From Candidatus Poribacteria bacterium (GTDB lineage: Bacteria > Poribacteria > WGA-4E > WGA-3G), in contig JAJEAG010000076.1 of assembly GCA_022824265.1 (NCBI GenBank), positions 1 to 57,418 of the forward strand: a stretch of DNA of 57,418 nt, written 5' to 3'. Under the pieces are notes generated by a model that was given only the letters and a program-made list of their open reading frames with translations, was not told the DNA's origin and did no database searches. This document shows positions 15,689-34,972 of the stretch, in pieces; the first letter of the stretch is position 1; each line of letters opens with the position of its first letter. A program made the position numbers and the translations under genes.

Positions 15689-16666
15689 ATGACATTAAAA
15701 TGGGGTGTTCTTGGTGCGGGTAGCGTTGCACAACGACGTGCTATGCCTGCTATTCACAAAGCAACAAACGCAGAACTACACGCACTCTTCTCACGTGATG
15801 CAGCACGTGCCAAACAACTTGCAACAGAACATAACGCTACAAAAGCATACAGCAATATTGACAACTTACTTGACGACAGTGAACTTGATGCAATCTACGT
15901 CTCAACACCGGTTAATCTCCACTGCGAACAGGTCATTGCTGCCGCAGAACGCGGATTACATGTCCTTTGTGACAAACCGATGGCACTCACTCCACAGGAA
16001 TGTGAGAGGATGATCGCCGCATGCAATGCAAACAACGTACATCTTCAAGTATGTTTCTTATTCCGATTTCACTCTTGCTTTCAACAAATCAAAACATGGA
16101 TTGACGAAAATCGTCTCGGAAAAATAGTTCATGCAAGGATGCCTTTCCTAAAAAAATACCTATTGACAGCAGATGAATGGCGTGCACTACCCGACCAAGG
16201 TGGTGGTGGGTGTCTGATGGACTTGGGACCACACAGCGTTGATTTACTGCGTTATCTCATCGGTGAAGTAACAGAGGTATCGGCATTTTGTAACAGTGCA
16301 ATCCATAATTATAAGGTTGAAGAAACTGGGGGGATTTTCGTACAGTTTCAGAACGGTGCACAAGGATTCACTGATCTCAGTTTCTCTGTTGCCCAGTGCG
16401 ACATAGTCCTCGAAATCTACGGTACAGAAGGCACCGTGACTGTAATCAACGACGATGGATGGAAAATCCAAACATACTTTGACGGTGAAAAACAGGTTAT
16501 CGCATCCCAATACGAAGACTTATACCAACATCAATTTGAGCATTTCGCAGAATGTATAAGCACTGGCGTTGCCCCGCTTGCAAGTGGTGATGATGGTCTG
16601 AGAGCAAATGTCATCTTAGATGCAGCCTACCAATCTGCACGTACTGACAAAGTAATTCATTGCTGA
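15689..16666 (+). CDS. Gfo/Idh/MocA family oxidoreductase
   Basis: This is an NAD(P)-dependent sugar or cyclitol dehydrogenase-like enzyme, 325 residues, the usual size. The Rossmann opening is KWGVLGAGSVAQRRAMPAI (GxGxxA type). The family motif around the catalytic Lys is LHVLCDKPMALT, with Asp in place of the more common Glu of E-K-P. The substrate-side DLGPHSVDLLRYLIGEV matches the usual G-x-H-x-x-D helix. The C-terminal alpha/beta domain includes GTEGTVTVINDDGW. ACGGAG precedes the ATG at a suitable distance. It stands alone, so its substrate cannot be guessed. Confidence 0.88.
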   Translation: MTLKWGVLGAGSVAQRRAMPAIHKATNAELHALFSRDAARAKQLATEHNATKAYSNIDNLLDDSELDAIYVSTPVNLHCEQVIAAAERGLHVLCDKPMALTPQECERMIAACNANNVHLQVCFLFRFHSCFQQIKTWIDENRLGKIVHARMPFLKKYLLTADEWRALPDQGGGGCLMDLGPHSVDLLRYLIGEVTEVSAFCNSAIHNYKVEETGGIFVQFQNGAQGFTDLSFSVAQCDIVLEIYGTEGTVTVINDDGWKIQTYFDGEKQVIASQYEDLYQHQFEHFAECISTGVAPLASGDDGLRANVILDAAYQSARTDKVIHC

Positions 16667-16732: not shown

Positions 16733-16751
16733 GTGTGCCAAAATGGCACAC
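16733..16751. promoter_or_regulatory. Perfect inverted repeat upstream of groESL, possible activator site
   Basis: GTGTGCCA-AAA-TGGCACAC is an exact 8+8 inverted repeat. It lies about 104 bp upstream of the -24/-12 promoter of groES, the usual distance for a sigma54 activator (enhancer) site, and is loosely reminiscent of NtrC-type sites (TGCAC...GTGCA). It could instead be a weak terminator for the oxidoreductase gene ending at 16666, although the T-run after it is poor. Confidence 0.45.
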
Positions 16752-16854
16752 TTATTTTGCATACATCATAATGCGGGACAAATTGTCATAGATTTTACAT
16801 ATTGAAAATACTGTCAAACCCTCTAACTGTGTGTTACGTCTGGATTCTTCAAAT

Positions 16855-16870
16855 TGGCATATATCTTGCT
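16855..16870 (+). promoter_or_regulatory. Sigma54-type (-24/-12) promoter for groES-groEL
   Basis: TGGCATATATCTTGCT matches the sigma54 consensus TGGCAY-N5-TTGCW exactly, with GG and GC ten bases apart. It is about 100 bp before the groES start. A weaker sigma70 reading of the same bases exists (TTGGCA, 16-bp spacer, TATACC). No CIRCE operator, the usual HrcA site for groESL, was found in this leader. Confidence 0.65.
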
Positions 16871-16967
16871 ATATCTATACCATTACTGAAAAACTAAGTT
16901 CGGGTTTTTATGAATCTAAATAAAGCCCGGTATACGTTCAATTATTCATTAGGAGGAAATATTTAAT

Positions 16968-17258
16968 ATGGCACTTGTACCCCTTGGCGATCGTATCCTC
17001 GTGAGACGTTCTGAAGAGGATGAGCAGAAAACCAGTGGCGGGATCATTATTCCAGACACCGCTAAAGAGAAGCCTCAAGAAGGTGAGGTTGTTGCGGTCG
17101 GTAAAGGTCGTATACTTGATAGTGGCGAACGTCAAGCCGTTGATGTAGAAGTCGGTGATAAGGTCTTGTTCGCAAAATACGGCGGTACCGAAGTTACATA
17201 CGATAATGTTGAATTTCTCATCTTGCGCGAAGATGATATCTTAGCCAAGGTTAACTAA
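16968..17258 (+). CDS. groES: Co-chaperonin GroES
   Basis: This is the 10-kDa lid of the GroEL chamber, 96 residues, full length. The start [19 protein letters not shown], the mobile-loop [18 protein letters not shown] and the closing [15 protein letters not shown] are all typical. AGGAGGAAAT lies 7 nt before the ATG. A 17-nt stretch covering this site (16944-16960) is identical to the one before glnA. groEL follows after 21 bp, so the pair is one operon. Confidence 0.98.
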
Positions 17259-18905
<1,647 letters not shown>

Positions 18906-18931
18906 TCTCAGAGACTATCTCATAAATAGTA

Positions 18932-18977
18932 AAAAGAAATCGGGTGGATGATAAATCTATCCGATTTCTTTTTTATT
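18932..18977 (+). terminator. Intrinsic terminator after groEL
   Basis: A 12-bp perfect outer stem (AAAAGAAATCGG at 18932-18943 with 18961-18972) continues through about six more pairs with two G-T wobbles to a GATAA loop, and runs into a T-tract. It closes the groESL operon, and its A/T symmetry could also stop transcription arriving from the minus side. Confidence 0.85.
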
Positions 18978-22901: not shown

Positions 22902-24047
22902 CTAATCGGCTGCAGCTGCATCAACTGCTGCTATCTGTGCGTTACGAATTGCATCTGCTAAATAGGTAATACCCTCAGGAACATCATCTACATGGCAATA
23001 AGCATACGCCAAACGTATTGCTTTCACAGGGTCACCGGCATAGTGAAATGCACTACCGTTACTATAGCCGACTCCTTTTGCAGATGCATACTCATTTAGC
23101 TTTTTCATATCGGTTGTTTCAGGAAGGTCAATCCACAAGAATAGACCACCACGCGGCTTTGTCCACGAGCATATATCACTGACATGTTCTTCAAGTGTGT
23201 CCACTACAGCCTTGCATTTAGCACCAACAGCAGCGTTCGTTTTTTCAAGATGTGCTTCAAGATGCTCCATAAAAAATTCTGCCACAATAGCACTTGCAAG
23301 CGCACTCGTACCACCATCCCATCGGTTCTGATGTATCATCCCGTAATAAGGTTGTTTTGCTACGAAGTAACCTTGTCTCACACCTGCACCCAGTATCTTT
23401 GAGAATGTCGCAATGAAGATAACCCGATTTGCTGTATCTAACTTAAAGAGTGATGCAGGAGTCGGATTCGGCACAAAATCGATATCTCCGTAACAGTCAT
23501 CTTCAATGATGAGCGTGTCGTATTCCTCTGCAAGTTCGAGCATACGGTGCCGCCGTTCAAGGGACAAAATAGCACCAGTAGGGTTTTGGTGGTTGGAAGT
23601 GGTGTAAATGAGAGAAGGTGTGACATTTTGTCGCTTAAGTTCTTTTAACTTCTCCTCAAGCGCGTCCATATCCATGCCATCTATATAATCCATTGGGATA
23701 CCGACAATATTTGCTTTGAGATGTCGCATAATACCGAGGGTACCACTGTAGGTATATTCCTCTGTTAATACCGTATCCCCAGGTTTAATGAATGTTCCCA
23801 ACACCAATTCAAGTGCCTGCATTGAGCCGGAAGTAATTGAGGTATTATCTACTGGAAGTGGAACGCCTTCTCTACGTTCAAAACGCATTGATGCCAGTTC
23901 ACGTAACCCGCGGTAGCCAGACTCACCCGGATAATTGACCAGTTGCCCTCCTAATTTACGTAGTGCCTTTGTACTTGCTTCAATCAACGCCTCGGTGGGA
24001 AATGTATAAGGGTCTGGTCTGCCTCCTGTAAACGCAAAATCTTTCAT
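22902..24047 (-). CDS. PLP-dependent aminotransferase (2-aminoadipate/MocR-type fold I)
   Basis: This is a fold-type I, class I/II aminotransferase of the group that includes LysN-like 2-aminoadipate transaminase and the catalytic part of MocR proteins. Typical elements are YPGESGYRGLRELAS, ITSGSMQALELV, TSNHQNPTGAILSLERR, LIIEDDCYGDIDF and the PLP-lysine segment ATFSKILGAGVRQGY (Lys217). The ATG at 24047 has AAGGAG before it and starts exactly where homology does (KDFAFTGGRPDPYTFP). The longer frame to 24113 is not needed. There is no N-terminal helix-turn-helix, so it is an enzyme, not a regulator. The amino donor cannot be told from the sequence. Confidence 0.87.
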   Translation of the reverse strand: MKDFAFTGGRPDPYTFPTEALIEASTKALRKLGGQLVNYPGESGYRGLRELASMRFERREGVPLPVDNTSITSGSMQALELVLGTFIKPGDTVLTEEYTYSGTLGIMRHLKANIVGIPMDYIDGMDMDALEEKLKELKRQNVTPSLIYTTSNHQNPTGAILSLERRHRMLELAEEYDTLIIEDDCYGDIDFVPNPTPASLFKLDTANRVIFIATFSKILGAGVRQGYFVAKQPYYGMIHQNRWDGGTSALASAIVAEFFMEHLEAHLEKTNAAVGAKCKAVVDTLEEHVSDICSWTKPRGGLFLWIDLPETTDMKKLNEYASAKGVGYSNGSAFHYAGDPVKAIRLAYAYCHVDDVPEGITYLADAIRNAQIAAVDAAAAD

Positions 24048-34956: not shown

Positions 34957-34972
34957 TGGCATAGACTTTGCA
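34957..34972 (+). promoter_or_regulatory. Sigma54 (-24/-12) promoter for glnA
   Basis: TGGCATAGACTTTGCA matches TGGCAY-N5-TTGCW exactly, GG and GC ten bases apart, about 100 bp before the glnA start. Sigma54 control of glnA by nitrogen regulators is well established in other bacteria. In the gap 34770-34956 there is a short inverted repeat GTGAT-N9-ATCAC (34897-34915), which could be an activator half-site pair. No gene was found in that gap. Confidence 0.75.

Follow-up and report, generated by a model that had tools for sequence, protein, structure and literature searches.

The question raised by this locus is which promoter, and which kind of regulator, a member of the Poribacteria employs to transcribe its chaperonin operon. 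The window, i.e. the whole analysed stretch of 57,418 nucleotides, belongs to a Poribacteria draft genome of 4.45 Mb in 100 contigs. It harbours, on the forward strand, groES (16968-17258; Pfam PF00166, Cpn10, E 7e-36) and the groEL copy linked to it (copy 1, 17280-18905; PF00118, E 2e-75). Both genes form one operon at whose end a terminator scan places an intrinsic terminator (18931-18973, forward strand). The ribosome binding site of groES, AGGAGG (16951-16956, forward strand), is conserved in congeners. The closest named match of GroEL is encoded on an uncultured Poribacteria chromosome (90% identity), the next phyla reaching at most 72%. A further copy, groEL2, located on contig C19, is 63% identical to copy 1 and possesses a leader with a sigma70-type TTGACT-N17-TATAAT and without a sigma54 element.

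The sequence-only reading had assigned groESL to a sigma54-type promoter preceded by a palindrome. Indeed, an exact match to TGGCAY-N5-TTGCW is present at 16855-16870 of the forward strand (TGGCATATATCTTGCT, i.e. TGGCAT-N5-TTGCT). Since transcription from sigma54 promoters starts 11 to 13 nt downstream of the GC element, the predicted start of the groES transcript is at 16880-16882 on the same strand. Throughout the genome, whose promoter lists are based on pattern searches, TGGCAY-N5-TTGCW has 44 exact matches compared to five for the reversed pattern which served as control, so that most of the exact matches should be functional. The genome also encodes what such promoters demand and what the earlier reading had proposed to look for, namely a single rpoN (PF04552, E 1e-60) and six strong sigma54 activators, or enhancer-binding proteins (EBPs; PF00158); a seventh PF00158 match was rejected as it turned out to be ClpB. 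The earlier reading thereby survives one of its own tests, having named the absence of rpoN as a ground for refuting it. A comparison with the groES leaders of relatives, suggested by the same reading, reveals that the -24/-12 element is conserved across the phylum. Within the family, every one of the 51 groESL leaders contains it (0.01 would be expected from shuffled sequences), and so do 13 of 20 from other Poribacteria, several of the remaining ones containing near matches such as TGGCGC-N5-TTGCT, although such leader counts are not independent trials because the genomes are related.

The upstream palindrome is present as well. It comprises 19 bp, GTGTGCCA-AAA-TGGCACAC (GTGTGCCAAAATGGCACAC, 16733-16751), and its end is separated from the -24 element by 103 bp. 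While this distal site had been recognised, a second one, GACAAATTGTC at 16777-16787, had been missed. Both are predicted activator sites whose positions are conserved. The centre of the distal site is situated about 114 bp upstream of the -24 element, and in about 50 relatives the same place is occupied by GTGCCA-AAA-TGGCAC or close variants thereof. The centre of the proximal site is about 74 bp away from this element, a position retained in 47 relatives, and the sister genera contain a third site centred about 49 bp upstream. The form common to the array is TGNCA-N3-TGNCA, of which at least one copy is present in each of the 51 same-family groESL leaders, compared to 0.32 expected from shuffles. 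By position, the sites at about 74 and 114 bp fall into the range of roughly 70 to 200 bp upstream which characterises activator sites. Their GNCA-N3-TGNC geometry resembles that of sites recognised by NorR and similar activators, whose DNA-binding domains are of the Fis type. In the alignment of groESL leaders, conservation starts exactly at the distal palindrome: upstream of it the information content amounts to about 0.07 bits per position, at the sites it rises to 0.55 to 0.94 bits, and the key bases of the -24/-12 element are invariant (2.0 bits). This contrast with the neighbouring sequence is a stronger argument for the predicted promoter than the leader counts. A search of the genome for further copies of the palindrome, which the earlier reading had recommended, yielded none with fewer than three mismatches. 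The copy of the relaxed consensus that the window contains with one mismatch is located at 23619-23635 inside an aminotransferase-like gene and was taken as a chance occurrence.

Might the distal palindrome simply terminate transcription of the gene ahead of it, whose stop is at 16666, as an intrinsic terminator, so that it has no role for groESL and the sigma54 element acts alone? Its 8-bp stem and 3-nt loop are followed by TTATTTT, and the terminator scan flags it as terminator-like. Yet at least five T residues among the next ten bases are found in just 10 of 50 relatives, and the spacing of about 114 bp to the -24 element is fixed though the upstream sequence is unrelated. Moreover, sites of the same consensus recur at 74 and 49 bp as well as before dnaK, clpB and lon. 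Based on this comparison of relatives, we reject termination as the main role of the palindrome and consider this explanation very improbable, while the distal palindrome may well double as a terminator in this particular genome. Just as little probability is given to the assumption that groESL is mainly transcribed from a housekeeping sigma70-type promoter, with the palindromes as repressor operators. A candidate for it, TTGGCA-N18-TACCAT, overlaps the -24/-12 element, and the leader of groEL2 implies that such promoters are in use in this genome. In addition, a sigma70-type promoter seems to have taken over in family f3 (G062 and G064) with the palindromes kept: its groESL leaders carry, instead of the -24/-12 element, a sigma70-like sequence, from which it follows that the sigma54 arrangement is not indispensable. 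Sigma70-like matches in the region, however, do not exceed chance (10 compared to 6.8 ± 3.1), the profile contains no conserved -35/-10 pair while the key -24/-12 bases do not vary, and sites 70 to 115 bp upstream fit an activator rather than a repressor.

In the G062 groESL leader (L108; that of G064 is L105) the sigma70-like sequence reads TTGACA-N17-TAGAAT and follows the palindromes GTAACATATTGTTAC and GTGTCATATTGTTAC, which are thus kept, albeit with changed sequence. The leaders of this family suggest a promoter switch from sigma54 to the sigma70 type at groESL.

A third possibility, a sigma54 promoter situated beside a second, basal promoter, is compatible with the explanation we favour and would only modify it. 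It appears rather unlikely, even though a sigma66-sigma54 tandem is reported for hrcA-grpE-dnaK of Chlamydia (PMC8762339) and hsp20 of the present genome is preceded by two sigma54 elements in tandem. A chaperonin needs basal expression, part of which the sigma70-type promoter of groEL2 could supply; in the groESL leader itself, on the other hand, there is no second conserved promoter block.

The sigma54 control which the earlier reading proposed for groESL is not confined to this operon but would extend to dnaK, clpB and hsp20 and, in relatives, lon. Among the 44 matches in the genome, exact -24/-12 elements precede groESL, dnaK, clpB, hsp20 (two in tandem) and glnA, and the leaders of dnaK, clpB and hsp20 contain the same kind of sites as that of groESL. 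Within the family, 28 of 29 dnaK leaders possess an exact -24/-12 element and 26 at least one site; for clpB the corresponding numbers are 28 of 29 and 23. As a negative control, the same genomes provided 30 leaders preceding an EBP gene, and the -24/-12 element is absent from all of them. A composite pattern consisting of the -24/-12 promoter and one site 34 to 64 bp away matches about 95 times in 70 genomes, its reversed version not at all. These matches lead to groESL, dnaK and clpB; six genomes belonging to a sister genus add lon, and another family adds hsp20. The architecture shared by these genes, which make up a heat-shock set, argues for a sigma54-dependent heat-shock or chaperone regulon.

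We therefore arrive, with a probability of roughly 0.85, at the reading that groESL belongs to a sigma54-dependent chaperone regulon of the heat-shock type in which an EBP would act via tandem palindromes. The initial proposal, according to which groESL is under sigma54 and has an activator site upstream, is well supported by rpoN, the EBPs, the phylum-wide conservation and the fixed positions of the array. According to the favoured model, sigma54 RNA polymerase would be held as a closed complex at the -24/-12 element of groESL, while an AAA+ enhancer-binding protein would occupy the tandem TGNCA-N3-TGNCA palindromes 70 to 115 bp upstream. Upon a stress signal, the latter would loop over to the polymerase, hydrolyse ATP and open the promoter. 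The same activator, using the same sites, would serve dnaK, clpB and hsp20 and, in sister genera, also lon. From the sequences we infer that groESL is bound by sigma54 as well as by an activator, where its transcript starts and that heat induces it; likewise, the palindromes would function in activation, not in repression, via a single common activator, and the signal would presumably be proteotoxic or envelope stress. The main folding genes of Poribacteria appear to be controlled by sigma54 and an activator instead of the usual heat-shock controls.

The HrcA/CIRCE system, by which many bacteria control this set of genes, differs from the present one in being repressor-based. The earlier reading had seen no CIRCE at groESL, which is correct and extends to the repressor itself. 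The CIRCE core GCACTC-N9-GAGTGC is absent from all 51 same-family groESL leaders, including that of the present genome, and HrcA (PF01628) is found in none of the 53 same-family genomes searched. Thus, both parts are missing from this family, in contrast to five other Poribacteria families, most members of which possess HrcA. The groESL leaders of two relatives within the class which both belong to one of these five families, G078 (L125) and G079 (L124), contain a CIRCE core together with a sigma54-like TGGCGC-N5-TTGCG, an apparent case of dual control by HrcA and sigma54.

As a point of comparison, the sequence-only reading had put forward groESL3 of Bradyrhizobium, which is controlled with NifA, and had deemed sigma54 control unusual for a main chaperonin operon. 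NifA sites conform to TGT-N10-ACA, whereas the distal palindrome displays TGT-N11-ACA and the proximal one GACA-N3-TGTC; furthermore, the genes co-regulated in Poribacteria are chaperone and not nif genes. The RpoN promoter of groESL3 (PMC4842269) has its predicted equivalent at the poribacterial groESL, but Bradyrhizobium possesses several groESL copies, of which groESL3 is a member of the NifA regulon, while in Poribacteria it is the groES-linked copy which is concerned. The closest counterpart is found in Flavobacterium psychrophilum, where sigma54 starts have been mapped at groESL, lon, dnaK, grpE-dnaJ, htpG and clpB (PMC9723704). A main chaperonin operon under sigma54 is therefore not without precedent. 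As in Flavobacterium, several chaperone and protease operons share sigma54 promoters in Poribacteria, with -24/-12 elements at groESL, dnaK, clpB, lon and others, and in five flavobacterial groESL leaders (L186, L191, L198, L200 and L202) a TGGCAY element has TGNCA-N3-TGNCA sites as well as half-sites in its vicinity. The two cases differ in that the starts are mapped in F. psychrophilum and predicted from sequence in Poribacteria. Beyond belonging to another phylum, the poribacterial case is distinguished by an array of ordered sites at fixed distances and by a documented loss of HrcA. A 2025 survey reports predicted sigma54 chaperone promoters to be enriched in Bacteroidota and Planctomycetota and does not mention Poribacteria (PMC12316311). 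Judged against the open-licence literature searched, the added phylum and the TGNCA-N3-TGNCA array at fixed distances are new. Sigma54 control of core chaperones, known from flavobacteria, would accordingly extend to a separate and largely uncultured phylum, in which it is conserved from the genus to the class level and, depending on the family, coexists with HrcA or replaces it. In the HsfBA-lonD system of Myxococcus, an NtrC-like activator drives lonD, a lon-family gene of the heat-shock response (Ueki and Inouye 2002, as cited by PMC9109919). HsfBA is a two-component pair whose targets are lonD and secondary metabolism, and the passage on it describes no groESL-dnaK-clpB regulon (PMC9109919).

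Which protein could be the activator? No named one was found for the sigma54 chaperone regulon of either flavobacteria or Poribacteria. A tree of the EBPs from five genomes contains four groups common to all of them (L032, L033, L034 and L036), and one of these four is most likely the activator. In our judgement L036 is to be preferred, although with somewhat less than even odds. This orphan EBP (G000:C90:2899-4323) has an orthologue, almost invariably a single one, in 56 of 60 genomes, and its receiver domain contains Pro or Gln at the position of the phospho-accepting Asp in all 31 orthologues which are readable at this column. L033, which we place behind L036 and regard as a rather doubtful choice, has a membrane sensor kinase as its partner; the L033-type EBP is the only one beside which a sensor kinase gene is conserved. 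None of the EBPs is seen beside a chaperone gene, no consistent or convincing site precedes any of the four universal EBP genes as would be expected for autoregulation, and neither these two approaches nor co-loss decides between L036 and L033. A more far-reaching and distinctly improbable version of the preferred choice holds that L036, since its receiver lacks the phosphorylatable Asp, runs the regulon in a phosphorylation-free manner, for instance upon release from a chaperone, and that such a positive switch made HrcA dispensable in this family. If true, L036 would be freed from the chaperone as unfolded protein accumulates, which would constitute a heat-shock switch based on sigma54. With the site code and four candidates at hand, the activator question of sigma54 chaperone regulons becomes directly testable in vitro.

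In other phyla, an EBP beside groESL was encountered solely in Eisenbacteria (L162); being 35% identical at best, it was judged a weak lead. The gene in question is located directly upstream of groESL, and in the leader the site TGCCATATTGGCA overlaps a sigma70-like promoter.

Within the 5' untranslated region of groES, a possible hairpin, CGGGTTT...AAAGCCCG (16901-16929, forward strand), was noticed by eye. Consensus folding across genera predicts no structure for the groESL leader RNA. Five congeners (L041, L042, L051, L052 and L058) retain the CGGGTTT...AAACCCG hairpin with sequence differences, and different hairpins occupy the same place in sister genera.

The exact element belonging to the glutamine synthetase gene glnA, TGGCATAGACTTTGCA, is found at 34957-34972 of the window, about 96 bp upstream of this gene. 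Elsewhere in the genome (L219, G000:C95:21053), an exact element precedes a gene for a NasT-like response regulator which adjoins a nitrite/sulfite-reductase-like gene. About 230 bp upstream of this element, TGACA-ATT-TGTCA is present, possibly the similar site of another activator. Finally, small stand-alone receiver-domain proteins are encoded directly behind sigma54-plus-site promoters in two relatives (L386, G062:C296; L387, G076:C2), the gene in G076 being situated between the promoter and dnaK; they are possible feedback partners of the activator.
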